Shown: one piece after another, positions 1 to 16,906 of the stretch
Layout of the letters: each line of letters begins with the position of its first letter
Position numbering within the stretch: position 1 is the stretch's first letter
From: Thermocatellispora tengchongensis
Lineage (GTDB): Bacteria > Actinomycetota > Actinomycetes > Streptosporangiales > Streptosporangiaceae
DNA: 64,000 bases
NCBI RefSeq assembly: GCF_014202315.1
Contig: NZ_JACHGN010000006.1
Coordinates: 372,001 to 436,000 of the forward strand
Direction of reading: 5' to 3'
The notes under the pieces: model-generated
Told to the model about the DNA's origin: nothing
What the model saw: the letters and a program-made list of their open reading frames with translations, nothing else
Databases searched by the model: none
Translations under genes and position numbers: made by a program

Positions 1-840
1 GCGGACGGGCGCCAGCTCCGCAGGCAGGGCGTACCGCAGGACCTCCTCCACCGCGCCCGGCAGCAGCTCCGGCCGCCGGAACAGCCGGGCGACCTGATCG
101 GGGTGGCGCAGCAGCGCCGCCACGGCGTCGGTCAGCACACCGGCGAGGTACAGGTGACCGGCCGCCGAGATGGACAGGGCCACATCGAGCAGCTCCTCCT
201 CGCCGACGCGCTCGCCCGCCTCGCCCGCCTCGCCCGTCTCGCTCACCTCGGCCGCCAGCAGGCCCGACAGCAGGTCGTCGCCCGGACGGCGGCGCTTGTC
301 GGCGATCAGATCGGCGAGCTGGTCCCGCAGCCTCGCCAACGCCTCCGGACTGCCCGAGGGCACGCCGAACGCCTGGAACGACCAGCGGCGGTAGTCGGCC
401 CGCCGCTCCTGCGGCACGCCCAGCAGCTCGCACAGTGACAGGACGGGCAGCGGCGCGGTGTAACCCAGGACGAGGTCCACCTCGCGCAGCCCGCGCATGG
501 CGTCCAGCAGCTCCACCGCGATCCGGCGCACCCGCGGGGCCAGCCACTGGCCCCGCTGGGGCGTCATGACGCCCGCGACGAGGTCGCGCAGCCGGGAGTG
601 CCGTGACGGGGTCTCGGGGGAGCCGGGCGGCGCCGGCACCAGCCCGGGATGGGCCAGGGCCTCGCGCGCCAGGTCGTAGCCCACCACCAGCCAGCCGGCG
701 GGGCCGGGGCCCGGCCCGGCGCGGTGGATCGGCCCGGCCTCGCGCAGGGCCGCATAACGGTCGCGAGGGGGCGCGGTGAGCGGCCCTTCACGCATGACCG
801 GAAGTTCCGGAGGGGCTGACGCCTGCTCGGCATAGTGCAC
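1..840 (-). CDS. cytochrome P450 (C-terminal part beyond window edge)
   Basis: Reading the minus strand from a GTG at 838-840 gives 280 codons with no stop up to base 1, so the gene is cut by the window edge before the haem-cysteine loop. GGAG lies 7 nt upstream of the GTG. P450 features seen are the C-helix region 'HSRLRDLVAGVMTPQR', a GDDLLSGLL stretch, an I-helix 'LLDVALSISAAGHLYLAG' and the K-helix ExxR motif in 'GAVEEVLRY'. The usual I-helix acid/threonine pair (AGxE/DT) is replaced by AGHLY, which is atypical for an oxygen-activating P450. It is divergent from the RiPP precursor genes, so a tailoring role in that cluster is likely but inferred. Without the Cys loop the catalytic status cannot be judged. 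Confidence 0.85.
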   Translation of the reverse strand, partial: MHYAEQASAPPELPVMREGPLTAPPRDRYAALREAGPIHRAGPGPGPAGWLVVGYDLAREALAHPGLVPAPPGSPETPSRHSRLRDLVAGVMTPQRGQWLAPRVRRIAVELLDAMRGLREVDLVLGYTAPLPVLSLCELLGVPQERRADYRRWSFQAFGVPSGSPEALARLRDQLADLIADKRRRPGDDLLSGLLAAEVSETGEAGEAGERVGEEELLDVALSISAAGHLYLAGVLTDAVAALLRHPDQVARLFRRPELLPGAVEEVLRYALPAELAPVR

Positions 841-1050
841 GTGCCATCTCCTGCCACAGGAGGGGGAGCTCATCGTGGTCAAGTGGAACAAGGTCCGAAT
901 CGACATCCGGTGGACGATCGTGTCAACAAGCATGGTCCGCCCGAGGCCCGCGTCAAGTGAAGCGGCGATGACCGGGAGCCGATCGTTCCATGTCGTTCTC
1001 CTCACAGTCGGCGAATCGCGCATTGTGAGGTTGTGGCAACCCCTGAGTCA

Positions 1051-1308: not shown

Positions 1309-1491
1309 ATGTCCAAGAACCTGGCGCTGGATCTGGCCGACATCGACGTCGAGCAGATCGCCCCGTACGGCGCTCCCGGCGAGGCGTCGCTCGAATCGCT
1401 GATGAGCGGTCACGGAATGCCGGAAATGGCGGCTTCGATCCTGCCGGTCGGCTGCTGCAGCTGCTGCCTTCCGTGCTGCTGCTGTTGCTGA
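1309..1491 (+). CDS. RiPP precursor peptide 1 (thiopeptide-type leader, poly-Cys core)
   Basis: This 60-aa peptide has the strong ribosome site GAAAGGGGG upstream. The N-terminal leader has the acidic/hydrophobic box LALDLADIDVEQ, probably the recognition element for the RRE protein. The distal leader SLESLMSGHGMPEMAA closely resembles the GE2270/thiomuracin leader ending ESLTAGHGMPEVGA. By analogy cleavage after Ala-Ala gives the core SILPVGCCSCCLPCCCCC, with nine cysteines, one Ser at position 1 and one at position 9. It ends in a free C-terminal Cys. Known thiopeptide cores alternate Cys with other residues, so a terminal run of five cysteines is unusual. It is first of five tandem paralogues. 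Confidence 0.93.
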   Translation: MSKNLALDLADIDVEQIAPYGAPGEASLESLMSGHGMPEMAASILPVGCCSCCLPCCCCC

Positions 1492-1536
1492 CGCGCGTCA
1501 CCGCCGTCGCGTTCTCCGGGCACGAAAGGAGGTCTC

Positions 1537-1725
1537 ATGACACCCGGACGCACGCTCGCGCTCGACCTGGACGGCGTCGATGTCCAGCCTCTGGCGATCG
1601 TCCCCGCCGAGGGCGCCGCGTCGCTGGAGTCGCTGCTCGGCGCGAACGCCATGACCGAGGTCGCGGCGTCCTGCTCGCCCACCTGCAGCTGCTGCGTCGC
1701 CTGTTGCTGCTGCTGCTGCGGCTGA
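1537..1725 (+). CDS. RiPP precursor peptide 2 (poly-Cys core)
   Basis: This 62-aa paralogue sits 45 nt after precursor 1 with a near-ideal AAAGGAGG site. The leader keeps LALDLDGVDVQP and SLESL, but the GHGMPE motif is changed to GANAMTE before VAA. The predicted core is SCSPTCSCCVACCCCCCG: ten cysteines, six of them consecutive, followed by a terminal Gly. Ser residues lie at core positions 1, 3 and 7. The shared tail VACCCCCCG recalls precursors 4 and 5. Function is inferred from the leader and the adjacent azole-forming enzymes. Confidence 0.92.
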   Translation: MTPGRTLALDLDGVDVQPLAIVPAEGAASLESLLGANAMTEVAASCSPTCSCCVACCCCCCG

Positions 1726-1774
1726 CCGAGTTCATCACCGATTCCCCTAGTCAATCCCGAGAAAGGAACGACCC

Positions 1775-1954
1775 ATGTCCCAGTCGTTCAAGCTGGACCT
1801 CGACGACTTCGACGTCGAGCCGCTCCACGCCGGCGACAGCCCGGCGGGCATCAGCCTGGAGTCGCTGACCCGCGGGCACGGCATGAGCGAGGTCGCGGCC
1901 TCGGTCGTCGGCGCCTGCCCGATCCTGCTCTGCAGCTGCTGCTGCTGCTGCTAG
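1775..1954 (+). CDS. RiPP precursor peptide 3 (poly-Cys core)
   Basis: This 59-aa peptide is preceded by GAGAAAGGAA. The leader carries FKLDLDDFDVEP and SLESLTRGHGMSEVAA, the closest match of the five to known thiopeptide leaders. The predicted core SVVGACPILLCSCCCCC has seven cysteines and only two serines, at positions 1 and 12. That spacing is the one here that best fits a normal thiopeptide macrocycle (usually Ser1 with a Ser near positions 10-13). Like precursor 1 it ends in a free C-terminal Cys, a possible substrate for the HFCD flavoprotein of this cluster. Confidence 0.92.
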   Translation: MSQSFKLDLDDFDVEPLHAGDSPAGISLESLTRGHGMSEVAASVVGACPILLCSCCCCC

Positions 1955-1968
1955 GAAGCGCGCCCATC

Positions 1969-2151
1969 ATGGCCACCAATCTCCTGCTCGACCTGCGCGG
2001 GATCGACACCGAGCCGGTGACCCCGGCCGAGTACGGCTCCAGCCCTTCGCTGGAGTCGCTCATGGGCGGCATGGCGATGGCCGAGACCGCCGCGTCGTGC
2101 AGCGCCTGCAGCTGCTGCGTCGTGTGCTGTTGCTGCTGCTGCAGCGGCTGA
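1969..2151 (+). CDS. RiPP precursor peptide 4 (poly-Cys core)
   Basis: This 60-aa paralogue begins only 14 nt after the stop of precursor 3. Its only ribosome site is the weak AGGAAG overlapping that stop, so translational coupling is likely. The leader has LLLDLRGIDTEP and SLESL, with the usual GHGM changed to GMAM. The predicted core SCSACSCCVVCCCCCCSG contains ten cysteines, six consecutive, and ends Ser-Gly. Ser1 and Ser6 flank a very short interval for a pyridine-forming pair. Confidence 0.91.
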   Translation: MATNLLLDLRGIDTEPVTPAEYGSSPSLESLMGGMAMAETAASCSACSCCVVCCCCCCSG

Positions 2152-2211
2152 GCGGCAGGCCCGCCCGCCCCTGCGATCGCCCCTGCGAGAAAGGGAAAGG
2201 AGGTATGGCAC

Positions 2212-2397
2212 ATGTCGCGTCTCGCCCTTGACCTGGAGGAGCTCGACACCGAGCGGCTCCAGCCCGTCGGCGTCGGCAACATGCAGTTGGCGACGATCGG
2301 CAGCGGTCACGGCATGACCGAGGTCGCCGCCTCGGCGTCCTCGTCGTGCTGCAGCGCGAGCTGCTGCCTTGCCTGTTGCTGCTGCTGCTGCGGCTAG
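2212..2397 (+). CDS. RiPP precursor peptide 5 (poly-Cys core)
   Basis: This 61-aa peptide follows a strong AAAGGAGG site. It keeps LALDLEELDTER and GSGHGMTEVAA but has lost the SLESL segment, which is replaced by NMQLATI. The predicted core is SASSSCCSASCCLA followed by six cysteines and Gly. It has ten cysteines and five serines, the most serine-rich of the set, and Ser1/Ser10 has the spacing of a 26-membered thiopeptide ring. It is the last precursor before the biosynthetic genes. Confidence 0.91.
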   Translation: MSRLALDLEELDTERLQPVGVGNMQLATIGSGHGMTEVAASASSSCCSASCCLACCCCCCG

Positions 2398-2424
2398 CAG
2401 CGAGCCAAGCCCGACCGTGAAACA

Positions 2425-2553: not shown

Positions 2554-4638
2554 ATGGAATCCGCGCACGACTCGATCCGGCCCAAGCTCAAGCCCGATGT
2601 CTACTGGGTCCCGCACCCCGACGGGGCGGTGTTCGTCCACTCCAGCGCCCATCTCACCGTACGGGGCAAGAGCGCGCTCGCCCTCATGGACCGCCTCGCC
2701 CCCCACCTCGACGGTGCCGTCACCCTCGGCGAGCTGGTCACCGGCCTGCCCGACGGCAAGCGTGAGATGGTCACCACGCTGGTGTCCTCGCTGCTCACCG
2801 CGGGCCTGATCAAGGACGTCTCCGGCGACGAGCCGCACGGCCTGACGGCCGCGGAGCTGGAGCTGTACGCGGCCGAGATCGCCTACATCGACTACTACCT
2901 CGACTCGGCGGCCCGCCGGTTCGAGGTCTACCGCAACACCCCCATCGCGTGCGTCGGCTCCGGGCTGACCCTCACCGCCCTCGCGCACGCCTGCCTGGCC
3001 GCCGGGGCCCGCGACGTGCGCGTGCTGGTGACCGGCGAGAGCCCCACCTCCGCCGAGAGGCTGGACGACTACGCCCGCCTGGCCGCCGAACGCGATCCCG
3101 CGCAGCGCCTCACCCACGGCCCCCTCTCCGGCTCGCTCGCCGCGGCGATCGGCGACGCCGGCGTCGTGCTGCACGTCTCCGACCGGCCGATGGCCGCCCG
3201 CGCCGCCGAACTGGACCGCATCTGCCAGGAGCGGGGCCTCCCGCTGGTGCAGGGCGTCATGGCCGGCGACGAGGCGTGGACCGGCCCGGTCAGCGGCTCC
3301 ACCGGCATGCTGTGGACCGCCGCCTGGCTGCGCCGCGCCGCCAACCTGGGCCTGCACCCCGACCCGTTCACCGGCACCAGTAGCGACGGCACCGGCGGCG
3401 ACGGCGCTGGCACCGACGGCACCGGCGCCGAAGGCGCGGAGCCGAGCCCGTTCCTGGCCGGGCCGACCGCGGCGATCGTCGCCAACCGCGTCAGCTTCAC
3501 CGCCTTCCGCCACATCACCGGCATCGCCGACGCCGACCCGCACAGCGCCGACCCCGCCAAGGCGGGCCGCGCCGCCGTCAGCGTGGTGAACCTGGAGACG
3601 CTGAACACCGGCGAGTACCGCTTCCACCCCCACCCCGCCGCCCAGCGCGCCGCCTCCGAGTCCGCCGACGCCTTCGCCGAGCGCTACCGCGCCTTCCTCG
3701 CCGCGACCCGGCTCGACGACGAGACGTTCTCGGCCCGCGCCGCGAGTTGCTTCGACCCCCGGCTCGGCCTGTTCGCCGAGATGGACGAGGGCGAGCTGCA
3801 GCAGCTCCCCCTGTACGCCGCCCGCGCCCGCGTCTCCGACCCGTTCGGGCACGCCGGCACCGGGGACGGCCGGGAGCGACCGCAGGTCACCGGCGCCGGC
3901 GTCACCCAGGCGCAGGCCCGGCACGAGACCGGGATCGCCGCGCTGGCCGCGTACGCCGCGCTCGCCGTGGACCGGCGCCGCCTGACCTCCGACGGCCAGG
4001 CGTACGCGCACAACCTGGTGCTGGAGAAGGACGAGCCGGTCCCGGCCGAGCTCCTGTACCCCGTGCTGCGCGCCGAGCCCGGCCCCTTCCGCGTGCCGGT
4101 CGGCCTGGTCGCCGGCCCCGACGCCGGCACCGCGCTCGCCGACGGCCTGCTCGCGCACATCGTCGCCCTGACCGCCGCCGCGGCCGTGACGTCCGGCACC
4201 CCCTTCCCGCGGGTGGACCTGGACGCCGCCGCGCTGCCGGACACCCCCGCCCGCTACCTGGAGATGCTGCGGGTCGCGCGCGTGCCGCTCACGGCCTACG
4301 ACGTGACCGGCCCCCTGGGCGTGCCGGTCTACGCCCTGTGCGTGGAGGACCGCACCATCGCCTACGCCGCCGCGCCGCGCCTGGCCGCCGGCCTGGCCCG
4401 GGTGCTGCTGGACTACCAGGGCGTCCCCACCCACCTGGACGGCGACGCGCCCGCGCTGCCCGAGCCGCTGCGCGGCACCGACACCGCCGCCTGGCGGGAG
4501 GCGCCCGAGCCGGACTGGCGGGCCCTGACCCGGACCCTGCACGAGCACGGTTACCAGGCGCACGCCGCCCCCGCCGGGCACGACCCGGTGATCGCCCGCG
4601 TCCTGCCCACCCTGGTCCAGGTGACCGTCCATGGCTGA
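2554..4638 (+). CDS. ocin-ThiF-like leader-binding protein of the azoline cyclodehydratase
   Basis: This 694-aa protein has GAAGGA before its ATG. Residues about 13-90 look like a PqqD-like RRE winged helix (DVYWVPHPDGAVFVHSS.., ending LLTAGLIKD). An E1/ThiF-like Rossmann region follows ('PIACVGSGLTLTALAHACLAAGA', roughly 130-260). In thiomuracin-type clusters this family (TbtF) binds the leader and presents the core to the YcaO enzyme. A Gly/Thr/Asp-rich stretch at about 273-296 interrupts the fold and is probably a linker. The C-terminal third is poorly recognisable. Its end overlaps the next start by 8 nt (ATGGCTGA), so the two are translationally coupled. Confidence 0.85.
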   Translation: MESAHDSIRPKLKPDVYWVPHPDGAVFVHSSAHLTVRGKSALALMDRLAPHLDGAVTLGELVTGLPDGKREMVTTLVSSLLTAGLIKDVSGDEPHGLTAAELELYAAEIAYIDYYLDSAARRFEVYRNTPIACVGSGLTLTALAHACLAAGARDVRVLVTGESPTSAERLDDYARLAAERDPAQRLTHGPLSGSLAAAIGDAGVVLHVSDRPMAARAAELDRICQERGLPLVQGVMAGDEAWTGPVSGSTGMLWTAAWLRRAANLGLHPDPFTGTSSDGTGGDGAGTDGTGAEGAEPSPFLAGPTAAIVANRVSFTAFRHITGIADADPHSADPAKAGRAAVSVVNLETLNTGEYRFHPHPAAQRAASESADAFAERYRAFLAATRLDDETFSARAASCFDPRLGLFAEMDEGELQQLPLYAARARVSDPFGHAGTGDGRERPQVTGAGVTQAQARHETGIAALAAYAALAVDRRRLTSDGQAYAHNLVLEKDEPVPAELLYPVLRAEPGPFRVPVGLVAGPDAGTALADGLLAHIVALTAAAAVTSGTPFPRVDLDAAALPDTPARYLEMLRVARVPLTAYDVTGPLGVPVYALCVEDRTIAYAAAPRLAAGLARVLLDYQGVPTHLDGDAPALPEPLRGTDTAAWREAPEPDWRALTRTLHEHGYQAHAAPAGHDPVIARVLPTLVQVTVHG

Positions 4639-6622
4639 GCCCACCCTCGCCGCAGCCCCGCCGCGCGTGAGCGTGCTCGGCGCCGGCGCCCTCGGCTCCG
4701 CGCTCGCCGAGCGGCTGCGCCCGTACGCCCCCGGCCCCGATGAGGCGCCCGACCTGCTGGTCGTGGCCGGCGACGAGCCCGGCGAGCGCCCGGAGAAGAC
4801 GCCCTGGCTCCCGGTCGGCGTGGAGCTCGGCACCGTCGTGATCGGCCCCGCCGCCCTGCCGGGCGAGCCCGGCTGCCCGGTCTGCGCGCGCTCCCGGGCC
4901 GGCAAGGCCCGCGCCGACGAGGCCGAGCGGCGGCGCGCCCGCGACAGGTTCCCCGACCGCTACCACGCCGACGACGTGCGGCTGACCCGGTTCGGGCTGG
5001 CCGTGGTCGCCGACCTCGTCGAGGACGAGCTGGCCCGCCTGCACCGGGGCGAGGCCGCCCGCACCCGCCGCGGCGTCATCCGCGTACGGCTGGACACCCT
5101 GGCCACCAGCGTGCACACCTTCCTGCCGGAGCCGCACTGCCCGCAGTGCGGGGAGCTGCCGGAGGACACCGAGGAGGCGGCCCGGATCACGCTGCTCCCG
5201 CGCCCCAAGCTCTCCAGGGACGTCTACCGGGTCGGCGACCTGCACGCCCGCGCCGACGAGCTGGTCAGCACGTACGTGGACGCCGAGACCGGCCTGATCC
5301 GCGGCCTGTACCGCACCGTCTTCGGCACCTACCCCACGGCCTCGGCGCCCATGGGCCTGGCGCCCGGAGCGGAGGACGTCGAGATGGGCTTCGGCCGGGA
5401 CCTGGACTTCGCCACCGCCCAGCTCACGGCGATAGCCGAGGCGGTGGAACGGCACGGCGGCATGCGGCCGGGCGGCAAGCGCACGGTCGTGCGCGGCAGC
5501 TACCGGCAACTGGCCGAGCGCGCCCTGGACCCCAAGACCCTGGGCCTGTACCCCGCCCACTGGCACGACCGGCCCGGCTTCTACTACCAGCGCTACCACG
5601 ACGACCTGGAGATGAACTGGGTCTGGGGCCACTCCTTCGCCAGGAACGAGCCGATCCTGGTCCCGGAGACCTACGCCTATTACCGCATGCACGCCCCGGG
5701 CCACGGCCACGGACACGGGCACGGCGACGAGATGCCCCTGTCGGGCCCGCGCCCGCCCGTGGACCGCCCCTTCGTCTACGAGATCTCCAACGGCTGCGCC
5801 CTCGGCGGCTGCCTGGAGGAGGCGATCCTGCACGGCATCCTGGAGGTCGCCGAGCGCGACGCGTTCCTGCTCACCTGGTACGCCCGCCTCCCCGTGCGCC
5901 GCCTGGACCTCGACACCGCCGCCGACCGCCGCATCCCGCTCATGGCCGAGCGGCTGCGCCACGACCTCGGCTACGACGTGCACGCCTTCGACACCACTAC
6001 CGAGCACGGCATCCCCAGCGTGTGGGTCATGGCCGTGCACCCCAGCGACCACGACGACGTGCCCAAGATGCTGTGCTCGGCCGGCTCGTCGTTCTCACCC
6101 GAGCGGGCGGTGGCCAACGCGCTGCTGGAACTGGCCCCCCTGGTGCAGTGGCGGCAGGACAGCATGATCGAGGAGCGCGAGCGCATCCTCGCCATGCTCG
6201 ACGACCCCGACCAGGTGATCAGCATGCACGACCACTCCCTGGTCAACGCCCACCACGCCGCGTTCCCCCGGCTGGAGTTCCTGTTCCGGGACCCGGGCGC
6301 CGTGCCCATCGCCGAGTCCTTCGCCGGCACGTTCCGGCCGCGCAACGAGGACCTCACCGCCGACCTGCGCGCGACCGTGGACCGCTACCTGGAGCGGGGC
6401 CAGGACGTGGTGGTGGTGGACCAGACCACCCCCGAGCACGCCGCGGGCGGCTTCACCTGCGTCAAGGTCATCATCCCCGGCCTGCTGCCGATGACCTTCG
6501 GCCACCGGCTGCGCCGGGTCGAGGGCCTGCCCCGCCTGTACGAGGTGCCCCGCATGCTCGGCTACGCCGACGCCCCGGCACGCCCGGAGGACATCAACCC
6601 GCATCCCCACCCCTTCCCGTAG
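4631..6622 (+). CDS. E1-YcaO azoline cyclodehydratase
   Basis: This 663-aa protein is a SagC/SagD-like fusion. The N-terminal E1-like part has VLGAGALGSALAERL and the Zn-binding pairs CPVC and CPQC (about residues 80 and 173). The YcaO domain from about 210 carries ATP-site motifs 'AIAEAVERHG', 'GCLEEAILHGILEVAERDAF' and 'LAPLVQWRQ'. The extreme C-terminus PHPHPFP is the proline-rich end typical of cyclodehydratase YcaOs. It would turn core Cys (and perhaps Ser) into azolines using ATP, with the preceding ThiF-like protein as partner. A His-Gly repeat at about 356-367 is an odd insertion. Confidence 0.93.
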   Translation: MAEPTLAAAPPRVSVLGAGALGSALAERLRPYAPGPDEAPDLLVVAGDEPGERPEKTPWLPVGVELGTVVIGPAALPGEPGCPVCARSRAGKARADEAERRRARDRFPDRYHADDVRLTRFGLAVVADLVEDELARLHRGEAARTRRGVIRVRLDTLATSVHTFLPEPHCPQCGELPEDTEEAARITLLPRPKLSRDVYRVGDLHARADELVSTYVDAETGLIRGLYRTVFGTYPTASAPMGLAPGAEDVEMGFGRDLDFATAQLTAIAEAVERHGGMRPGGKRTVVRGSYRQLAERALDPKTLGLYPAHWHDRPGFYYQRYHDDLEMNWVWGHSFARNEPILVPETYAYYRMHAPGHGHGHGHGDEMPLSGPRPPVDRPFVYEISNGCALGGCLEEAILHGILEVAERDAFLLTWYARLPVRRLDLDTAADRRIPLMAERLRHDLGYDVHAFDTTTEHGIPSVWVMAVHPSDHDDVPKMLCSAGSSFSPERAVANALLELAPLVQWRQDSMIEERERILAMLDDPDQVISMHDHSLVNAHHAAFPRLEFLFRDPGAVPIAESFAGTFRPRNEDLTADLRATVDRYLERGQDVVVVDQTTPEHAAGGFTCVKVIIPGLLPMTFGHRLRRVEGLPRLYEVPRMLGYADAPARPEDINPHPHPFP

Positions 6623-6626
6623 ATCG

Positions 6627-8240
6627 GTGCACGCGAGCATGGGCAACCTCGACGTCGCCGTCGCCGACGGCTATTGGCACTCCACCTTCTTCGACACCGC
6701 CGCCCTGCTGATGGAGAGCGCCGGGGCCGAAGGCGGACCGGACGAGCCACCGAAGTTCAAGAGATACCTCGACCGGCCCCGGCTGGCCCTGCCGCAGCAG
6801 GTGCCGCTGCGGCTCGGGCCGCTGGACCGGGTGCTGGCCGGCGACCCCGCGCCGCCGCCCGCCCCGCTGCGGGCCGGGGACCCGGCGCACCCCGACACCC
6901 TCGGCGCCCTGCTGTACTACGGCTACGGCTTCTCCCGCCAGGACGTCGGCCCCACCGCGGGCTGGCCCTACCACCGCCTGGTGCCCTCCGCGCGCTGCTT
7001 CTACCCGACGGAGCTGTACCTGTGCCTGCCGGGCGGCGGCGACCTGCCCGCCGGCGTCTACCACTACGACCAGCTCCACCACGCCCTGGTGGAGCTGCGG
7101 CCCGGCGACCACACCGAATTCCTGGCCGCCGCGGCCGGGGCCGGGTTCGACGGGGCCGCCGCGGTCGCGGTGCTGACCTCCCACTTCTGGAAGACCGCCT
7201 TCCGCTACCGCCACTACGCCTACCGGCTGTGCACGCAGGAGGCGGGCATGGTCGCCGGCAACCTGCTGCTGGTGGCGGCGGCGCTCGGCCTGGCCGCGCA
7301 CACGCACTACCAGTTCCTGGACGAGGCCGTGGACCGCCTCCTCGGGCTCACGCCGGGGGAGGAGCGCACCATGGCGGTGCTGCCGCTGTACCCGGCGGAC
7401 GCCGCGCCCGCCGCCGTACGCCCCGCGCCCGGGGCCACCGCGGCCGGGCTGTGCGCCCGCATCCCGCCCCTGCACGCGCCCTACGAGGACGTGCCCAAGG
7501 ACCTGTCGGCCGCCGCCCGCCTGTACGACCTGGACCGCCACTCGGTGCTGGAGGACACCGCCGGGTTCGCCCCGCCGCGCCCGCCCGCCGCTCCGCCCAC
7601 ACCCGGTCACGGGCTCGGGAACGGGCACGTGAACGGGAACGGGCACGGGAACGGGCACGGCCCCGACCTGGCCGTCACGCTGCGCGAGCGCAACTCGGGC
7701 GGGACGCTGTTCCGGCCGGTCGGCACGCCCATCGGCGCCGCCGACCTGGACCGGGTGGTGCGCCACGCCCTCGACCCCTCGCCCACCGACCTCGGCGCCC
7801 CGCTCAGCGCGGTCCACGTCGTGGTCCAGCACGTCACCGGGGTGCCCGCCGGGATCTACCGGGTGGACGGCGGCGAGCTGCGGCGGGCGGGCGACCTGCC
7901 CGAGGGCCGCCTGGACCGCCAGCTCGCCTTCGGGCCGCCCGTGATGGACATGACCGCGGTCAACGCCGTGTGCTACCTGGTCGCCGACCGCGACGAGGCC
8001 ACCCGGTGGCTGGGCAACCGGGGATACCGCATCGCCGGCATGGACGCCGGAGCCCCCGCCCAGCGCATCTGCGTGCTCGCCGCCGCCGCGGGCCTGGCCG
8101 CCCGCCCCGTGAACAGCTACTCCGTGCCTCAGGTACGCGAGCTGCTCGGCATCGAGCGGGACTCGGCCGTCCCCATGTTCCAGATCGCCCTGGGACGGCG
8201 CAGCCCGAGCCCGCAGTACGAGCTGCCCATCCTGTTCTGA
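6627..8240 (+). CDS. SagB-type FMN azoline dehydrogenase 1 (double nitroreductase fold)
   Basis: This 537-aa protein contains two nitroreductase-like halves. The first has 'RLVPSARCFYPTELYLCLPGG', 'GVYHYDQLHHALVEL' and 'YRLCTQEAGMVAGNLLLVAAALGL', and the second has 'GVPAGIYRVDGGEL' and 'RICVLAAAAGLAARPVNSYSVPQVRELLGI'. They are joined by an Asn/Gly/His repeat linker at about 326-346. The family oxidises thiazolines and oxazolines to azoles (TbtE-like). It begins 4 nt after the cyclodehydratase stop with GTG; an ATG at 6639 is an alternative, and neither has a clear ribosome site. It is one of two such dehydrogenases in the cluster. Confidence 0.88.
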   Translation: MHASMGNLDVAVADGYWHSTFFDTAALLMESAGAEGGPDEPPKFKRYLDRPRLALPQQVPLRLGPLDRVLAGDPAPPPAPLRAGDPAHPDTLGALLYYGYGFSRQDVGPTAGWPYHRLVPSARCFYPTELYLCLPGGGDLPAGVYHYDQLHHALVELRPGDHTEFLAAAAGAGFDGAAAVAVLTSHFWKTAFRYRHYAYRLCTQEAGMVAGNLLLVAAALGLAAHTHYQFLDEAVDRLLGLTPGEERTMAVLPLYPADAAPAAVRPAPGATAAGLCARIPPLHAPYEDVPKDLSAAARLYDLDRHSVLEDTAGFAPPRPPAAPPTPGHGLGNGHVNGNGHGNGHGPDLAVTLRERNSGGTLFRPVGTPIGAADLDRVVRHALDPSPTDLGAPLSAVHVVVQHVTGVPAGIYRVDGGELRRAGDLPEGRLDRQLAFGPPVMDMTAVNAVCYLVADRDEATRWLGNRGYRIAGMDAGAPAQRICVLAAAAGLAARPVNSYSVPQVRELLGIERDSAVPMFQIALGRRSPSPQYELPILF

Positions 8241-8284: not shown

Positions 8285-10918
8285 ATGCGTGTCGGTATCA
8301 GAGTGGCCAGTCTGCCGGTGACCGCCGTCGGCCAACTGCGCTCCGACAAGAGCTGGGCCGCCATCGCCGACGCCGTCGCGACCGGACGCTGGCTGAGGGA
8401 GGAGGGCGCGCGGCTGTCGGATGAGCTGTACGAGCTGATCGGACGGCCCGAGACGGCCCCGGTGAAGCCCCGCGCCGTCGCGCTGCGGCGGGCGGTCTTC
8501 ACCGGGCGCAGGCTGGGCTCCCGGTTGTGGAACCCCGAGATCCGCGCGGTGCTCCCCGAGGAGCTGGCCGCCCGGATCGACGCCTGGGACCGGCGCTACC
8601 GGGAGCGCGACGCGATCGTCGCCGACCTGCCGGACCTGATGGCCGGCGAGCTCGCCGAGGTCAACCGGCTGCTGCGCGAGACGCTGCGCGCCCCGGCCTT
8701 CCAGTACGGCCTGGTCACCGGCAGCCCGGACCTGTTCGAGGAGCTGACCAAGTGGCTCGGCGGCCCGCGCGACGCGCAGCCCTCCCGCCAGACCCTGCTG
8801 CGGCTCACCAAGTACCTGCTGCGGGTCGTCACCAAGACCAGCCCCTACAGCACGTTCACCATCAGCGGCATGACCGGCGTCGTGCCCGGCCACGACGCCG
8901 TCCGCTTCACCGGCGACTTCGAGTGGAAGAGCGTGGTGGAGCTGAACATCTGGCTGGTCCGCCGGCTCGCGGTCGCCGCCGTACGCCACCCCGCCCTGCG
9001 CGCCACCCAGGTGCTGCGGCCCAACCCCAGCCTCGTCGCCGACGGCGACACCCTCACCTTCCTGGCCGGCGGGCCCGCGGCCGCGCTGGTCAGGCTCCGG
9101 CGCAGCCCGGCGCTTGAGGAGAGCCTGCGCCATCTTCAGGAGCATCCCGGCGCCACGTTCACCGGGCTCTGCCGCCACCTGCGCGAGATCGACCCGAAGC
9201 TCGACGAGCGCGAAGTGGCGCAGTACGTCGCCAAGCTCGCCGACGCCGGGGTGCTCAACGCCCTGCCGCCGTACGCCGAGCAGGACGAGGACCACCTCGC
9301 CACCCTGGCCGCCTGGCTGGGCGGCGGCGGCGCCCCCGAGCTGGACCACCTCGCCGGCGAGGCCCGGCGGCTGCACGCCGACCTGCTGGACTACGCCGGC
9401 CTGGCCGATCCGGCCCAGCGGCGCGAACGCAACCGGGTCATCGTCGGACGCCTGGGCGGCATGCTGGAGGCGGCCGACCGCGTCTCCGGCCTCCCCGACG
9501 GCGAGCCGCTGCCCCGCAAGAACCTCTTCCACGAGAACGCCGTCTTCCTGTCCCCGGTCGCCGAGCTGGGCCGGGACGCCTGGGAGCCGGTCCTGGCCGA
9601 CCTGCACGCCCTGCGTCCCGTCCTCGGCATGTTCGATCCGGGCAGGCCCGCCCGCCTCGCGCTCACCCGGGTGTTCACGGCCACGTACGGCGAGGGCGGC
9701 ACGGCCCCGTGGCTGGACTTCTACCAGACGATCAACCGGCTGATCGGCGGCGGGCACAAGGCGAGCATCGGCGGCGTGGACGGCGCCACCGCCCGCGCCC
9801 TGTGCAACGGGCCGTCCACCACGCCCCCCGACGTGTGGCGGGCCCTGCCCTTCGCCCGAGAGCAGTCCGAGCTGACCGACACCGTCGGCAAGGCCATCCG
9901 GTTCCGCCCCGCCGACCCGGACGGCGTCGTCCGGCTCAGCCCGGCCGAGCTGGACGCCCTGACCCGCCCCTACGGCCAGTCGGTGGCCGACCCGCTCACC
10001 TGCTACGTCCAGCTCGTCGAGTCCGAGGGCCCGCTGCGGATCGTGCTCAACACGGTCTCGGTCGGCGTCGGCCGCGGCCACACCCGGCTGGCCCGCATGC
10101 TGCGCCGGGCGGGCGCGCGCGGGTACGACGAGCCGGCCGTGGCCGAGGAGGCGCCCGACGGGTCGCTGCTGGTGGAGAGCGGCGCCGGCTTCGACAGCAA
10201 CCTCAACCTGCGCACGCCGGGCACCCGCTACGAGCTGGACTACCCCTTCACCGCGCCCGGCCGCCCGGAGGCGTACCGCATCCCCGTCAACGACCTGCTC
10301 GTCGCCCACGACTCTGGCACCGACGCCCTGACGCTGCGCTCGCGGCGGCTCGGCCGCCCGCTGCGGCCCGTACACGGCGGCCTGATGGCGGAGATGTGGC
10401 TCCCGCCGCCGCTCCGGCACCTCATCGAGATCTTCGGCGCGCCGCCGACGCTGATGCACGCCAGCCTGCCGCTGTTCCTGCCCCGCGACCACGACCCGCG
10501 CGAGCTCGGGCTGCGCGTGCTGCCGCGCCTGGAGGTCGGCCGGATCGTGCTGAGCCGCCGCTGCTGGGCGTTCCCGGCCAAGGAGATGCCGCTGCGCGCC
10601 AAGGGCGAGAGCGACGCGGGCTACTGGCTGCGCCTGGCCGAGTGGTTCGCCGAGCAGGACATGCCGGAGCGCTTCTACGTCCGCGTCGTGGCCGTCTCGC
10701 ACACCACGTGGCGGCCCGACCTGAAGTCCCGCAAGCCCATGTACGTCGATGTGGCCATGTGGTACTCGATCGCGCTGCTGGAGCGCGCCATCGCCGACCC
10801 CGGCGACCTGGTCATCGTCACCGAGGCGCTGCCCGATCTGGACGCGGCCCCGCGCTACGGCGCCGCCGGGCACGTCACCGAGCTGACCGTCGAGGTCGGC
10901 GGCGAGGAGGACCGATGA
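8285..10918 (+). CDS. lantibiotic/thiopeptide dehydratase, glutamylation subunit
   Basis: This 877-aa protein starts at an ATG with AAGGAAGGGA upstream. It matches the Lant_dehydr_N family, which transfers glutamate from glutamyl-tRNA to core Ser/Thr: a 'KTSPYSTFTISG' motif (about 185), 'KNLFHENAVFL' (about 412) and the family-like C-terminal 'RPVHGGLMAEMWLPP' and 'RCWAFPAKEMP' stretches. Its size fits the split thiopeptide dehydratases (TbtB-type), in which glutamate elimination is done by a separate small protein. An ATGA overlap couples it to the next gene. It should convert Ser residues of the five cores to Dha. Confidence 0.9.
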   Translation: MRVGIRVASLPVTAVGQLRSDKSWAAIADAVATGRWLREEGARLSDELYELIGRPETAPVKPRAVALRRAVFTGRRLGSRLWNPEIRAVLPEELAARIDAWDRRYRERDAIVADLPDLMAGELAEVNRLLRETLRAPAFQYGLVTGSPDLFEELTKWLGGPRDAQPSRQTLLRLTKYLLRVVTKTSPYSTFTISGMTGVVPGHDAVRFTGDFEWKSVVELNIWLVRRLAVAAVRHPALRATQVLRPNPSLVADGDTLTFLAGGPAAALVRLRRSPALEESLRHLQEHPGATFTGLCRHLREIDPKLDEREVAQYVAKLADAGVLNALPPYAEQDEDHLATLAAWLGGGGAPELDHLAGEARRLHADLLDYAGLADPAQRRERNRVIVGRLGGMLEAADRVSGLPDGEPLPRKNLFHENAVFLSPVAELGRDAWEPVLADLHALRPVLGMFDPGRPARLALTRVFTATYGEGGTAPWLDFYQTINRLIGGGHKASIGGVDGATARALCNGPSTTPPDVWRALPFAREQSELTDTVGKAIRFRPADPDGVVRLSPAELDALTRPYGQSVADPLTCYVQLVESEGPLRIVLNTVSVGVGRGHTRLARMLRRAGARGYDEPAVAEEAPDGSLLVESGAGFDSNLNLRTPGTRYELDYPFTAPGRPEAYRIPVNDLLVAHDSGTDALTLRSRRLGRPLRPVHGGLMAEMWLPPPLRHLIEIFGAPPTLMHASLPLFLPRDHDPRELGLRVLPRLEVGRIVLSRRCWAFPAKEMPLRAKGESDAGYWLRLAEWFAEQDMPERFYVRVVAVSHTTWRPDLKSRKPMYVDVAMWYSIALLERAIADPGDLVIVTEALPDLDAAPRYGAAGHVTELTVEVGGEEDR

Positions 10919-11925
10919 GCTGGGTGAGCGTGCACGCCTTCCACCAGGGAGACCTGGACGCCCTGCTCACCGCCGGGGTCGTGCCCCTCGCCGAGCGCCT
11001 GGCCGGCGACGGCCTGGCCGTGCGGTGGTTCTTCCTGCGCTACTGGGACGGCGGCCCGCACCTGCGCGTACGCGTGCTGGCCGCCGAAGGGCAGGAGGCG
11101 CGCGTGGAGCGGGAGCTGGTGGACGGGCTCGGCGCCTACCTGCGCGCCCACCCCTCCGGCACGCTCGACGCCGACGCCTACCGGCGCATGGCCGCGGAAC
11201 TGGCCCGGATGGAGGGCATGGCCGCGCACGAGGCCGAGCCGCGGCCCAACGACACCGCCCAGCCGGTGCCGTACGTGCCCGAGCGCCACGTCTACGGCGA
11301 GCGGGAGGCGCTGGCCGCCGCCGAGCGGCACTTCGCGGAGTCCAGCCGCATCGCCGCGGGCGTGGTGGCGGCGGGCACGCCGCAGGGCCGGCGCCGCGGG
11401 CTGGCGCTGTCGGCCGCCCTGCTGGCCCTGGCCGTGGCCGAACCCGACCTGGACGACGTGGCCGCCCGTTTCGCCGCCGGCGCGCAGGCCGCCATCACCG
11501 CCGCGCGCGACGCGGGCATGCCGGATCTGTCGGCCTCCTACCTGCCGCAGCGCGAGCGGCTGCTCGCCCACGCCCGCGACCTGTGGCGGCTCGCCGCCAC
11601 CGGCCCCCAGCAGGACGACGACGAGGACGACGCCCACATCGCCTGGCTGCGCAGCGTACGGGCGCTGCGGCAGCGGCTGGAGGCGGCCCGCGCGGCCGGA
11701 GACCTCGACGTCGAGCCCCCGCGCTCGCCGTTCACCTGGCAGACGGCGCACCTGCCCGGCGGGCCCCCCGCCGCGGTGCGCGGCGTGCTGCTGCGCGCCG
11801 CCCACCTGTTCAACAACCGCCTCGGCGTCCCGATCAGCGAGGAGATCCACATCAACTACCTGATCGGCAGAACCCTCGCCGACCTTGCACCGAACCGAGA
11901 ACCCACGACTGTGAGGACACCGTGA
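10915..11925 (+). CDS. thiopeptide-type Lant_dehydr_C protein A (elimination or pyridine synthase)
   Basis: This 336-aa protein begins 'MSWVSVHAFHQGDLDALL' with the family motif 'WFFLRYWDGGPHLRVRV' and ends 'LFNNRLGVPISEEIHINYLIG', resembling the xNRLGI/E end of glutamate-elimination domains. The superfamily includes both the elimination subunit (TbtC-like) and the [4+2] pyridine synthase (TbtD-like). Two different members lie next to each other here, as in true thiopeptide clusters, so one is probably each. I cannot decide which from sequence alone. Its stop overlaps the GTG of the next gene (GTGA). Confidence 0.82.
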   Translation: MSWVSVHAFHQGDLDALLTAGVVPLAERLAGDGLAVRWFFLRYWDGGPHLRVRVLAAEGQEARVERELVDGLGAYLRAHPSGTLDADAYRRMAAELARMEGMAAHEAEPRPNDTAQPVPYVPERHVYGEREALAAAERHFAESSRIAAGVVAAGTPQGRRRGLALSAALLALAVAEPDLDDVAARFAAGAQAAITAARDAGMPDLSASYLPQRERLLAHARDLWRLAATGPQQDDDEDDAHIAWLRSVRALRQRLEAARAAGDLDVEPPRSPFTWQTAHLPGGPPAAVRGVLLRAAHLFNNRLGVPISEEIHINYLIGRTLADLAPNREPTTVRTP

Positions 11926-13079
11926 CCGAGACGACGCGGCAGTGGCACAGCGCGCACATCTACTACTACGACGGGAACGGCGCCGACGCGCTGCTCCTGG
12001 ACGGGGTCCGGCCACTGATCGCGGCGCTCGGCGAGCGCGGCATGCCGGACGCCTACTTCGTCCGCCACTGGCTGCGCGGCCCCCATGTCCGGGTGCACGT
12101 CCACACCGACCCCGCGACCTGGGAGAACGTCGCCAAGCCGCTGATCGAGGACATCGCGGGCGGCTACCTGCGCGAGCACCCGTCCACGCACGTCCCGGAC
12201 ATGGAGCAGGAGGAGCGCGTCCACACCTGGCTGGCCGAGCTGGAACGCGAGCAGGGGCCGCTGACCCCCTGGTTCCCCGACAACTCCATCCAGTACCTGC
12301 CGTACGACCGGCGCCTGCACGTGCTCGGCACCGTGGAGGCCGCCGACAACCTCGCCGCGTTCCACGTCGAGACCACCCCGCTCGCCTTCCGCATCCTTCA
12401 GGACCACCCCACCAAGTCGGGCAGGCTCGGCGCGCTGCTGTCGCTGATGCTGGCCAGCGCGCAGATCGGCTGCCCGCCCATCACCAAGGGCTACCTGTCC
12501 TACCGCTCGCACGCCGAGGGGTTCTTCGCCAACTGCGCCGACCCGCAGCGGATGCGCACCACGTACGAGAACCTGTACCAGGCCAACCGGGAGCCGCTGG
12601 CCCGGCGGCTGCGCGCGGTGCTGGCGCTGCTGGACCCCGATGCCCCCGCCGCCGACGTGGACGAGGACGGGTACGAGGAGGCGACCCGCTACCTCGCCGA
12701 GTGGGCGCCCATCGCGCGCCGCGTCATCGAGCGCTCGGAGGACCTGGAGGCCCGCGGGCTGCTCGACATGCCGTCCTTCTTCGTGGACGACCCCGACTCC
12801 CGGCGCGGCATGGGCTGGGAGAACGTCAGCGACTTCCACAAGGCCCTCATCGGCAACGAGCACGTGCGCGACGAGCTGGCCTCGGCGACGTGGTTCACCG
12901 TCTACCGGGTCCTGCTCAACTTCCAGTACCTGCTGTTCAGCAGGCTGGGCCTGACCCCGTCGGAGCGGTTCCTGCTGTGCCACCTCGCCGCGCGCGCGGT
13001 GGAGGACGCCCACGACATGGGCCTGGACAAGGTCATCGAGCTGCTGCAGGCCGAGCCCACCGCCTGGGGGCCGAGGTGA
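11922..13079 (+). CDS. thiopeptide-type Lant_dehydr_C protein B (pyridine synthase or elimination)
   Basis: This 385-aa protein starts at GTG inside the previous stop. It opens 'QWHSAHIYYYDGNGADALLL' with 'YFVRHWLRGPHVRVHVHT', the same superfamily as its upstream neighbour but clearly divergent and longer, with a central 'YLSYRSHAEGFFANCADPQRMR' block and a C-terminal 'LLFSRLGLTPSERFLLCHLAARAVED'. Together with protein A it makes the elimination/pyridine-synthase pair expected of a thiopeptide pathway. If it is the pyridine synthase it would also release the leader during aromatisation, consistent with the lack of a peptidase gene. Assignment within the pair is open. Confidence 0.82.
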   Translation: MTETTRQWHSAHIYYYDGNGADALLLDGVRPLIAALGERGMPDAYFVRHWLRGPHVRVHVHTDPATWENVAKPLIEDIAGGYLREHPSTHVPDMEQEERVHTWLAELEREQGPLTPWFPDNSIQYLPYDRRLHVLGTVEAADNLAAFHVETTPLAFRILQDHPTKSGRLGALLSLMLASAQIGCPPITKGYLSYRSHAEGFFANCADPQRMRTTYENLYQANREPLARRLRAVLALLDPDAPAADVDEDGYEEATRYLAEWAPIARRVIERSEDLEARGLLDMPSFFVDDPDSRRGMGWENVSDFHKALIGNEHVRDELASATWFTVYRVLLNFQYLLFSRLGLTPSERFLLCHLAARAVEDAHDMGLDKVIELLQAEPTAWGPR

Positions 13080-14593
13080 CGCACGCGCGGGAGGCCGCGG
13101 CGGCGCGCCGCTACCTGAGCGAGGGGGAGCGCCTGCAGCCGGGCAACCTGGCCCGGGTGGACTGGGGCCGGAAGCTGCCCGCGGTCAAGCGCTACCCGCC
13201 CCGGGCCGCCGTGCGCCCGGCGGACCCGCTGCCCGCGCTGCTGCGCGACGCCTACGGCTGGACCCGCTACCAGTGGGACGACTGGGGGCAGGCCACATCG
13301 TTGCCCGGCATGGCCAACCTCGCCCTCGGCCGCCCGCTGCGCGCGGTGCCGTCGGGCGGCGGCCTGTCGTCCTCCGAGCTGTACCCGGTCGGCGAGGTGC
13401 CCGGCCTGCCCTCCGGGGCCTACCACTACGACGGCGCCGCCGAGGCGCTCGACCCGGTGCGCGCCAACGTCACCCCGGCCGACCTGGGCCTGGACGACAC
13501 GCCCCTGGCGTTGCTGATCACCAGCGTGTTCGGCAGGGTGTCCTTCAAGTACGGCGAGTTCGGCTACCGGCTGCAGTGCCTGGACGCCGGCCTGCTCGCC
13601 GGGCAGATCCTCGCCGTCCTGGACGCCGCCGGGCTCGGCGGCCGGCTGCACACCCGCTTCCACGACGAGGCGGCGGAGGAACGGCTCGGCCTGACCCCCA
13701 CCGCCGAACGCCCGCTCGTCGCGGTCGCCGTCCGCGGCCTGCCCCCCGCGGCTCCTGCGGCTCCCGGGGCGGTGCCGCTCGCCGCCCCGGCCCTGCCGAC
13801 GGAGCACACCCGGCCGCCGCAGGTGCTGGACACCATGCCGCACACCCGTACGCTGTGCGCGGCCAGCCGGGACGGCACCGGGCCCGGCGCTCCGCTCCCG
13901 CCGCCGCTCGTGCCCGGCCCCGCGTGGCCGGGCGACGCCGTCGCGCTCCCGCCGCCGGACGCCGACCCGCTGCGGCCGGACGCGCTCGCGGTGGCCCGGC
14001 GCGAGCGCCGCAGCCTGGACGGCCGTTTCGGCGTCGGCCCCATCACCCTCGCCCAGGCCGCCACCGTGATCGCCGCCGCCCGGCACACCTGGGAGGGCGA
14101 CGTCGGCTCCCGGCACGTCCTGCTGTACTGCCTGGTCAACGACGTCACCGGCGTCCCGCGCGGCGCGTACGTCTACGACCCGGCCGGCCACCGGCTGCTC
14201 CGCACCCGCGAGGGCGACCTGCGCGAGGAGATGTGGCTGCCGCCGCCGCAGCGCTGGCTGCTCGGCGACCAGCGCTGCGCCATGGCCGTGTACCCGGCGG
14301 GCGACTACGCCGCGGGCTTCGCGGCCTGCGGCGACCGCTGGTACCAGATGCAGAACATCGCCGCGGGCGCCGTGGCGCAGCGCGTCCTGCTCGCCGCCGC
14401 CGGTGCCGGGCTCAGCAGCCGCATCATGTGCGCCGCCGCCCCCGCCGACGTCGCGAAACTGCTCGCCCTCCCGCCCGCCCACCGCCCCCTGTGCGAGATC
14501 CTGATCGGCCCGCGGGGGCACAACGTCGCCTACGCCCAGCCGCTGTCCGCCGGCGACACCTGGCCCGCCCGCACTCCCGAGGTGACCCCATGA
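13076..14593 (+). CDS. SagB-type azoline dehydrogenase 2
   Basis: This 505-aa double nitroreductase-fold protein uses a GTG overlapping the previous TGA. Motifs are 'RAVPSGGGLSSSELYPVGEVPGLPSGAYHYD', 'YRLQCLDAGLLAGQILAVLDAAGLG' and, in the second half, 'GVPRGAYVYDPAGHRLLR' and 'WYQMQNIAAGAVAQRVLLAAAGAGL'. A Pro/Ala-rich linker separates the halves. It is only distantly similar to the first dehydrogenase. A second copy may act on different azolines of the crowded poly-Cys core or form a heteromer with the first; both ideas are inference. It is coupled by ATGA to the second YcaO. Confidence 0.85.
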   Translation: MTHAREAAAARRYLSEGERLQPGNLARVDWGRKLPAVKRYPPRAAVRPADPLPALLRDAYGWTRYQWDDWGQATSLPGMANLALGRPLRAVPSGGGLSSSELYPVGEVPGLPSGAYHYDGAAEALDPVRANVTPADLGLDDTPLALLITSVFGRVSFKYGEFGYRLQCLDAGLLAGQILAVLDAAGLGGRLHTRFHDEAAEERLGLTPTAERPLVAVAVRGLPPAAPAAPGAVPLAAPALPTEHTRPPQVLDTMPHTRTLCAASRDGTGPGAPLPPPLVPGPAWPGDAVALPPPDADPLRPDALAVARRERRSLDGRFGVGPITLAQAATVIAAARHTWEGDVGSRHVLLYCLVNDVTGVPRGAYVYDPAGHRLLRTREGDLREEMWLPPPQRWLLGDQRCAMAVYPAGDYAAGFAACGDRWYQMQNIAAGAVAQRVLLAAAGAGLSSRIMCAAAPADVAKLLALPPAHRPLCEILIGPRGHNVAYAQPLSAGDTWPARTPEVTP

Positions 14594-15945
14594 AGCTGCG
14601 CAGCCGAGTCCCCAAGCACCACAAGACGGGCACCCACCGCGAGGTCCCCGCCACGACCACCCTGGAACGCATCCGCCCGCACCTGCGCACCATCGGCGTC
14701 ACCAGGATCGCCGACATCACCGGCCTGGACCGGGTGGGCATCCCCGTCTACAACGCGATCATGCCGCGCTCGCAGGAGCGGCTGTCCATCTACAACGGCA
14801 AGGGCCCGACCCCCGCCGACGCGATGGCCTCGGCCGTCATGGAGGCCGTGGAACGCTTCTGCGCCTGGCAGCCGATGCGGGCCACCGCCATCGCCTCCTA
14901 CGCCGACCTCGCCGCCGCCGGGCGCCCGGTCATGGACCCGGCGGCGTACAACCTGGAGCAGGACCGCCGCTACCACCCTGACCTGCCGATCTCCTGGGTG
15001 GAGGGGTTCGACCTGATCGCCGGGGAGCCCGTGCTCGTGCCGCAGTGCCTGGGCGGGTACTACCACCGCTTCCACGAGATCCCCACGCACAAGATCACCA
15101 CCGCGAACGGCATCGCCTCCGGCAACACCCTGGAGGAGGCCGTCTGCCACGGGCTGGCCGAGGTCATCGAGCGCGACGACTGGACCATGGCCGAGCTGGT
15201 CGGCAACCGCCTGCGCCAGGTGATCCGGCAGCGGCTGGGCCAGAACGCCCCGCCCGGGGCCGACGAGTGGCTGACCGAGCGCAACCCGAGCATCGACCTG
15301 GGCACCCTGCCCGCCTCCGCGCAGCGTTACGTCGAGGCGTTCGAGCAGGCGGGCGTACGCATCGTGCTGAAGTACACCGGAGGCGACAGCACGGTCCCCA
15401 GCGTGGCCGCGATGGCGCTGGAGGACAGCGGCGGCGCCTTCTCCGCCGCGCACGCCGGCTACGGCGCCCACCCCGACGCCGAGACCGCGCTGCTGCGGGC
15501 GCTCACCGAGGTCGCGCAGAGCCGTGCCGTGGACATCCAGGGCATGCGCGAGGACCTGAGCCAGGCCGGCGACGAGATCCCCGACTGGGACCGCCACGCC
15601 GCCAGGAGCGCCAGTGTGGACCCCACGTCCTGGCCCTTCAACGACTCCCCGGCCCCGGTCAAGTTCGCCGACCTGCCCAGCACGCCCAGCGACGACATCG
15701 CGGCCGACCTCGCCGTGATGCTCGCCGAATGCCGGCGGCGCGGCCTGGACCGGGTCATCGCCCTGGACCGCACCGCCCCCGGCCTGCCCGTCGCGGTGGC
15801 CCGGGTGCTGGTGCCCGGCGCCGAGTCCTGGGGCGTGGACCAGAGCAAGCTCGGCCCCCGGGCGGGCGCCCGGTGGGACGCGGAGCTCAAGGAACTGATC
15901 CGCCGGCGCGACGAAGGCGCCGCCGGCGGGGGAGAGGAGTCCTGA
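14590..15945 (+). CDS. TfuA-associated YcaO (candidate thioamide-forming)
   Basis: This 451-aa stand-alone YcaO has the nucleotide-binding motifs SAVMEAVER (Sx3ExxER), 'LEEAVCHGLAEVIERDDW' and EVAQSR (ExxQxR). It lacks both an E1-like domain and the proline-rich C-terminus of cyclodehydratases, ending in a charged tail. The next gene, overlapping by one base (TGATG), is TfuA. YcaO-TfuA pairs install backbone thioamides, as in thioviridamide-type peptides, in thiopeptin/saalfelduracin-type thiopeptides and in methyl-CoM reductase. Here the likely product is a thioamidated form of the poly-Cys peptides. The target residue cannot be read from the sequence. Confidence 0.9.
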   Translation: MKLRSRVPKHHKTGTHREVPATTTLERIRPHLRTIGVTRIADITGLDRVGIPVYNAIMPRSQERLSIYNGKGPTPADAMASAVMEAVERFCAWQPMRATAIASYADLAAAGRPVMDPAAYNLEQDRRYHPDLPISWVEGFDLIAGEPVLVPQCLGGYYHRFHEIPTHKITTANGIASGNTLEEAVCHGLAEVIERDDWTMAELVGNRLRQVIRQRLGQNAPPGADEWLTERNPSIDLGTLPASAQRYVEAFEQAGVRIVLKYTGGDSTVPSVAAMALEDSGGAFSAAHAGYGAHPDAETALLRALTEVAQSRAVDIQGMREDLSQAGDEIPDWDRHAARSASVDPTSWPFNDSPAPVKFADLPSTPSDDIAADLAVMLAECRRRGLDRVIALDRTAPGLPVAVARVLVPGAESWGVDQSKLGPRAGARWDAELKELIRRRDEGAAGGGEES

Positions 15946-16890: not shown

Positions 16891-16906
16891 CCCTCCCGCT
16901 ACCGGG
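16878..16906. terminator. bidirectional terminator hairpin between TfuA and HFCD genes
   Basis: CCCGGTAGC (16878-16886) pairs perfectly with GCTACCGGG (16898-16906) around an 11-nt loop. The right arm overlaps the stop codon of the minus-strand flavoprotein gene. No T-run follows, as is common in high-GC actinomycetes. Confidence 0.6.

Follow-up and report, generated by a model that had tools for sequence, protein, structure and literature searches.

A thiopeptide-class gene cluster with five cysteine-run precursors and a predicted ladder of macrocycle sizes in Thermocatellispora tengchongensis

The window analyzed here is a 64-kb stretch of the Thermocatellispora tengchongensis genome (positions 372001-436000 of contig 6; the genome measures 11.65 Mb and gives nine YcaO matches, eight of them above cut-off). 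Near its start, between 1309 and 2397, five open reading frames lie in tandem on the forward strand, each encoding a peptide of 59-62 amino acids that ends with a run of five or six cysteines (5, 6, 5, 6, and 6 for precursors 1-5) and each with a purine-rich stretch directly before its ATG, weaker at precursor 4. When the core is taken to start at the Ser that follows the leader end (Ala-Ala), the cores of precursors 1-5 hold 9, 10, 7, 10, and 10 Cys, and beyond the five precursor runs no run of four or more Cys was found in any of the six frames of the 64-kb window. These counts confirm the preliminary description, which had reported five tandem precursors with 7-10 Cys per core and such terminal runs. 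The shared leader proposed there is real but less uniform than claimed, with GHGM in three of the five precursors and GANAM and GGMAM in its place in the remaining two, and with the SLESL motif present in four of five. A C-terminal Cys is found in precursors 1 and 3 only. Against NF033399, the NCBI model for precursors of the thiomuracin/GE37468 family (cut-off 29), precursor 3 scores 41.1 bits, precursor 1 26.0 bits, and precursor 5 16.7 bits; precursors 2 and 4 give no match at E <= 0.1.

Table 1. Features of the cluster (positions within the window)
Feature	Position	Strand	Remarks
Cytochrome P450, N-terminal part, running off the window; uncertain accessory	1..1023	-	
Precursor 1	1309..1491	+	Core SILPVGCCSCCLPCCCCC; Ser1/Ser9; predicted 23-membered ring; orthologues in L048 and L050
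Precursor 2	1537..1725	+	Core SCSPTCSCCVACCCCCCG; Ser1/Ser7; predicted 17-membered ring
Precursor 3	1775..1954	+	Core SVVGACPILLCSCCCCC; Ser1/Ser12; predicted 32-membered ring; passes NCBIfam NF033399
Precursor 4	1969..2151	+	Core SCSACSCCVVCCCCCCSG; Ser1/Ser6; predicted 14-membered ring
Precursor 5	2212..2397	+	Core SASSSCCSASCCLACCCCCCG; Ser1/Ser10; predicted 26-membered ring
ThiF-like TOMM F protein, likely leader-binding partner	2554..4638	+	TIGR03693, E 1.7e-44, 152 bits, below cut-off 562; orthologues 52% and 49% identical
Azoline-forming cyclodehydratase, fusion of YcaO and leader-binding domain	4631..6622	+	TIGR03604, 346 bits (cut-off 219)
SagB-type azoline dehydrogenase 1	6627..8240	+	TIGR03605, 137 bits (cut-off 78)
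LanB N-terminal (glutamyl transfer) half of split dehydratase	8285..10918	+	PF04738, 117 bits over containing ORF
LanB C-terminal half, predicted glutamate elimination	10915..11925	+	His in key column; groups with thiomuracin- and GE2270-type partner proteins
Pyridine synthase ([4+2] macrocyclase)	11922..13079	+	NF045556, 421.7 bits (cut-off 325); Tyr in key column
SagB-type dehydrogenase 2	13076..14593	+	TIGR03605, 115.8 bits (cut-off 78)
Second YcaO, TfuA-associated, predicted thioamidation	14590..15945	+	TIGR03266, 245.8 bits, below cut-off 365
TfuA-like partner of second YcaO	15945..16619	+	PF07812, 133 bits (cut-off 30) over containing ORF
MrsD/EpiD-type flavin-dependent cysteine decarboxylase, probable accessory	16899..17537	-	Best solved relative MrsD, E 9e-44

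The genes that follow the precursors (Table 1) are all on the same strand from the F protein to TfuA and overlap at six of their eight junctions. The leader-binding domain of the cyclodehydratase scores 137 bits on TIGR03882 (cut-off 37), and its C terminus reads PHPHPFP, the proline-rich ending typical of azoline-forming YcaO proteins; the second YcaO ends otherwise. For the YcaO-TfuA pair, domain cut-offs are passed (199 bits on TIGR00702 for the YcaO domain, cut-off 76), but the equivalog models for McrA thioamidation remain below theirs, NF033432 included (213.9 bits for the TfuA-like protein, cut-off 235). An ABC transporter ATPase and a histidine kinase are encoded directly upstream of the window and have orthologues downstream of TfuA in two related genomes, G209 and G294. 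A P450 gene, also found at the G209 locus, runs into the window; its in-window part has no Pfam match, and the whole frame, in L057, matches PF00067 at 32.4 bits (cut-off 22.8). Because a pyridine synthase, a split LanB, an F protein, a YcaO cyclodehydratase, and SagB are present, the cluster is, as judged from its genes, of the thiopeptide class, as had been proposed. The narrower placement with GE2270 and thiomuracin agrees with the leader and the pyridine synthase; on the other hand, only one of the five precursors passes NF033399, and the predicted ring sizes differ from the 29-membered ring of that group.

Of the two SpaB_C proteins, the second one matches the TbtD structure 5wa3 at E 6.3e-50, TbtD and PbtD being its nearest solved relatives, whereas the first reaches only 90 bits on the TbtD/PbtD equivalog model NF045556 (cut-off 325) and, when compared with solved structures, gave nothing beyond chance matches. 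An 87-bit TbtD-like match from a scan of untrimmed ORFs, in which neighbors were mixed, belongs to this elimination half and was set aside. A key role in catalysis has been described for Tyr319 of TbtD (PMC12018205); in the alignment with TbtD, and with an assumed offset of three in the chain numbering, this residue would be the Tyr within TYLHL. Among the 43 rows used for the tree below, the corresponding key column is Tyr on the synthase side in 22 of 23 cases, the exception being the distant L112, and His in all 20 elimination-side rows. In a tree of 43 of the 52 SpaB_C rows (six repeats and three partial or overlapping ORFs left out), whose bootstrap is not fully settled, the synthase and elimination sides separate at 100/100, and the proteins of the window, G209, and G294 form one clade on each side (100/99 and 99/98). 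A second pyridine-synthase-like gene occurs elsewhere in the same genome (L109, G000:C41:9530-10318; 42% identical over 267 residues) and hints at another thiopeptide-type cluster; three adjacent YcaO genes with a TfuA-like match (L010, G000:C9:377697-381317) appear to be a separate RiPP locus in that genome.

The five-precursor arrangement is not confined to this strain. A profile of the five peptides retrieves 35 proteins at E <= 0.01 among 5.8 billion, so the shared precursor family is not due to chance. Four are the window's own, and the other 31, counted by eye, comprise 24 with five- or six-Cys runs, two with runs of four (P0014 and P0030), and five without a run; the matches include proteins of Thermopolyspora sp. 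NPDC052614 and Rhizohabitans arisaemae. In G209 and G294, which represent two other genera, all five precursor types occur in the same order as in the window, the type 3 precursor of G294 having been missed by the profile searches and found by reading frames. Types 1, 2, 4, and 5 keep the spacing of the core Ser pair unchanged, whereas the type 3 cores of G209 and G294 have it one residue shorter than in the window. The order F protein, cyclodehydratase, SagB1, LanB, elimination half, synthase, SagB2, YcaO, TfuA is likewise the same in all three genera, at 42-61% identity. The set is therefore old and kept, rather than a recent burst of copies, and the earlier suggestion of several products from one operon gains substance from it.

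Of 341 genomes in the family, at least 42 gave a match to the five-peptide profile (E <= 0.01) and at least 31 to a wider profile (E <= 1e-4), these whole-genome searches having scored 16-18 candidates at most in nearly every genome, so that absences are soft. Among 30 loci inspected, runs of four or more Cys occur in the strain's own genome, G209, G294, and five genomes of genus g35; four loci have no precursor by the pattern used, and the remainder have precursors with shorter runs. Among the matches listed, a phylum sample of 396 gave the own genome only, and in a class sample of 394 it was joined by three genomes of the same family; two class-sample matches, G061 and G126, showed no long Cys run, and a scan of viral contigs confirmed no relative. 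The genus g35 clusters would represent a second Cys-rich thiopeptide type: five loci (L041-L044 and L046) carry two or three near-identical precursors ending CCSCCSCCPCCCCS, and two of the clusters (G096 and G107) were seen to encode a pyridine synthase together with two SagB, TfuA being absent. Two Streptomyces loci (L016 and L017), where the F protein, the cyclodehydratase, and both SagB matched but LanB did not and no precursor was recognized, and a weak 26% match in Priestia (L018) were not used. Among the titles and abstract openings listed from an open-licence collection of the literature, which leaves subscription papers largely outside, no description of such precursors was found.

Comparison of the clusters also sheds light on the accessory enzymes. 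Two SagB regions are present in all five fetched clusters with runs of at least four Cys (G000, G209, G294, G096, and G107) and one in all five without such runs (G061, G126, G008, G173, and G160), whereas TfuA is found in three of the five with a Cys run and none of the five without; these are related clusters, not independent events, and the run-less ones were seen in shorter stretches (16-20 kb versus 30-50 kb). The MrsD-like protein is 62% identical to the product of a gene beside the G061 thiopeptide cluster, whose core SDCGCWCCSCC has a C-terminal Cys, and at most 37% identical to any other match in ten genomes. At that locus (L118), an extra LanB N-terminal match and the MrsD-like decarboxylase lie beside a short precursor (2152-4761, 4904-5383, and 5812-5970). 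The stretches examined around the G209 and G294 clusters contained no MrsD-like gene. Because precursors 2, 4, and 5 lack a C-terminal Cys, the decarboxylase cannot act on their unprocessed C termini, and because precursors 1 and 3 alone end in Cys and the gene was not found around G209 and G294, decarboxylation would be an optional late step at most.

All 36 distinct related cores have a pair of serines, Ser1 and another one ahead of the Cys tail, the Cys after the second Ser being built in because the script requires it. The set derives from 39 rows (38 of alignment A2 and one G294 peptide) minus three duplicates; P0001-P0004 are the window's own and were entered from the window instead, P0014 was omitted for its odd long N terminus and run of four, P0030-P0035 for having no run of five or six, and the Cys-rich cores of genus g35 and the cores of G061 and G126 are outside the count. 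Cys precedes the second Ser in 32 of the 36 cores, precursor 5 having none at that position. In 20 of them, precursor 1 included, no further Ser lies between the pair, which is therefore hardly a choice; precursors 2, 4, and 5 have an extra Ser or Thr within the predicted ring, and precursor 4 also a C-terminal Ser, so for these three the reacting Ser is assumed. Spacings of 6, 7, 8, 9, 10, 11, and 12 occur in 8, 6, 2, 12, 5, 2, and 1 cores. With ring atoms counted as 3(n-1)-1 for a spacing of n, this predicts seven pyridine macrocycle sizes across the family, of 14, 17, 20, 23, 26, 29, and 32 atoms. The tail reads C-[CS]-x-x and then five or six Cys in 33 of the 36 cores, and three type 3 cores have four or five Cys directly after the second Ser. 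Across the family, it is the predicted ring that changes in size, and the tail stays nearly the same. The same formula applied to the cores of known thiopeptides returns 26, 29, and 35, the ring sizes given for the class (PMC3917276), and it also matches pyritides A1 and A2, whose Ser1/Ser6 and Ser1/Ser7 pairs form 14- and 17-membered rings (PMC9247985).

On the reading we favor, to which we assign a probability of about 0.6, this is a thiopeptide-class cluster whose five precursors become pyridine-closed macrocycles with a likely polythiazole tail and a ring size set by Ser spacing. Azole conversion, ring closure, thioamidation, and decarboxylation are here predictions from the genes. The F protein and YcaO cyclodehydratase would turn Cys into thiazolines, which the two SagB proteins would oxidize, SagB2 probably being required for the long run. 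The split LanB pair would dehydrate Ser1 and the Ser before the tail, and the synthase would join both dehydroalanines, expel the leader, and close the ring. The YcaO-TfuA pair would install a thioamide, and the MrsD-like enzyme may act as a decarboxylase on the Cys that ends precursors 1 and 3. Recognition at two sites, leader and constant Cys tail, could allow one synthase to make several ring sizes, as has been described for pyritide enzymes. These recognize the leader and a C-terminal tripeptide and yield rings of 14-68 members, failing at 8 and 11, of which 14 and 17 are natural and those up to 68 engineered; even so, the tolerant pyritide enzyme closed only 44 of 56 variants in which the ring sequence had been altered (PMC9247985). 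The constancy of the leader end and the tail in the present family fits, by analogy, such two-site recognition. Against it, we found no thiopeptide precedent for a single synthase that closes rings of 14 to 32 members within one strain.

Several other readings of the same genes deserve consideration. The pyridine macrocycles might form while the Cys run is converted only in part, leaving thiazolines, thiols, or cross-links in a tail that serves as a metal or thiol ligand. Free thiols or thiazolines in a run would be expected to bind soft metals strongly, the sulfide link of cyclothiazomycin is an example of cross-linked Cys, and the Cys-ending precursors 1 and 3 are accompanied by an MrsD-like decarboxylase, a class that needs a free thiol; moreover, processivity along a six-residue run is an assumption. 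The second SagB, which accompanies long runs in all five clusters, suggests more oxidation than this, and we consider partial conversion rather unlikely. Much the same weight can be given to cyclization of only some precursors, such as type 1 to a 23-membered and type 5 to a 26-membered ring, the short-spaced types 2 and 4 being linear azole peptides or decoys. A 14-membered ring with two thiazoles should be strained, no thiopeptide ring of that size appears in the accessible text of PMC3917276, and 12 of 56 variants were not closed by the pyritide enzyme (PMC9247985), but types 2 and 4 hold their Ser spacings of 7 and 6 across three genera, and the rings of pyritides A1 and A2 are of exactly 14 and 17 members (PMC9247985). 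It is far less probable that the products are linear azole peptides with dehydroalanines resembling goadsporin, with the second SpaB_C in another role. The goadsporin group also combines a split LanB with azole enzymes (PMC4603692), but the canonical [4+2] protein is, according to the accessible part of the same source, absent from goadsporin, whereas the second SpaB_C here passes the equivalog cut-off for pyridine synthases and keeps the Tyr; a linear product was dropped because of this full-score match to NF045556.

The cluster might, finally, be a silent relic whose Cys runs arose by slippage of TGC repeats, since the runs are mostly TGC and their lengths differ by one between orthologues. 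However, the operons have no visible breaks in three genera, and the cores of types 1, 2, and 4 are kept while the leaders have diverged: per pair of orthologues, 1-5 codons of about 18 in the core differ non-synonymously and 3-8 synonymously, and just 4-16 of the last 30 leader residues match. Exactly one TGT occurs in 12 of the 15 runs of the window, L048, and L050, and two in none, a pattern with a chance of about 0.004 given 12 TGT in 79 codons; three further TGT lie outside the runs, in the cores of G209 and G294, and in the window's nine enzymes from F to TfuA all 38 Cys codons are TGC. In these 15 related runs the single TGT looks like a codon choice against slippage, in which case the length of the run would matter, and we give the relic reading hardly any credence.

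With pyridine-closed macrocycles bearing a polythiazole tail as the preferred product, a bolder proposal can be put forward, tentatively and with rather more doubt than confidence. The locus may be a natural combinatorial system in which one synthase, reading the leader and the poly-Cys tail but not the ring, produces a ladder of rings from 14 to 32 members, five of them in one strain. The fixed (thiazole)5-6 rod would then be the shared active part and the rings separately selected heads, with the Cys-ending precursors trimmed by a lanthipeptide-type decarboxylase that would be new to thiopeptides. This would be the inverse of known thiopeptides, where the ring is the conserved, target-binding part, and it raises the question of what kind of target would keep the tail constant and let the ring vary. 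If true, a "one macrocyclase, many ring sizes" system like those now engineered from pyritide enzymes would already exist in nature, along with enzymes that install five or six adjacent thiazoles in a rigid scaffold that is hard to synthesize. Five natural substrates of one enzyme would then allow a test of whether thiopeptide macrocyclases gauge the ring itself or the recognition sites on either side of it. The preliminary description had overlooked the Ser pair and the variable ring on a constant tail and, among the enzymes, a second dehydrogenase, YcaO with TfuA, and the MrsD-like decarboxylase.

Within the known thiopeptide class, the cluster is new in its Cys-run tail, in its predicted set of five rings, and in its additional enzymes. 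With the thiomuracin and GE2270 systems (Tbt and Pbt), the cluster shares the leader ending, F protein, YcaO cyclodehydratase, SagB, split LanB, TbtD/PbtD-type synthase, Ser1, and a Cys-Ser-Cys second site. Those systems have one precursor and a 29-membered ring, whereas here there are five precursors with five predicted ring sizes and Cys-run tails, together with two SagB, a YcaO-TfuA pair, and an MrsD-like gene. Cyclothiazomycin, compared here at the level of its core, has a single precursor, a shorter run broken by Ser, and a second, sulfide-linked ring. Contiguous azoles are known from plantazolicin, but the products of this and the cytolysin type are linear, come from mixed Cys/Ser/Thr runs, and are not known to involve a pyridine synthase. 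To our knowledge, neither a Cys-run tail nor a five-precursor set occurs with the thioamidated thiopeptides saalfelduracin and thiopeptin. They share with the present locus a TfuA-YcaO pair within a thiopeptide cluster (PMC8120280). Cyclothiazomycin, previously named as the nearest case, does share a thiopeptide core with a Cys-rich end (PMC3917276), but that choice was too narrow, contiguous heterocyclizable residues being typical of cytolysin-type precursors as well (PMC4603692). Pyritides (Mro) share a TbtD-like macrocyclase and recognition of the leader and a C-terminal motif, and their two precursors yield 14- and 17-membered rings, sizes that are also predicted here (PMC9247985). As described in that source, pyritides lack Cys and azole genes, whereas the present cluster has both, and its constant C-terminal part would be a polythiazole.
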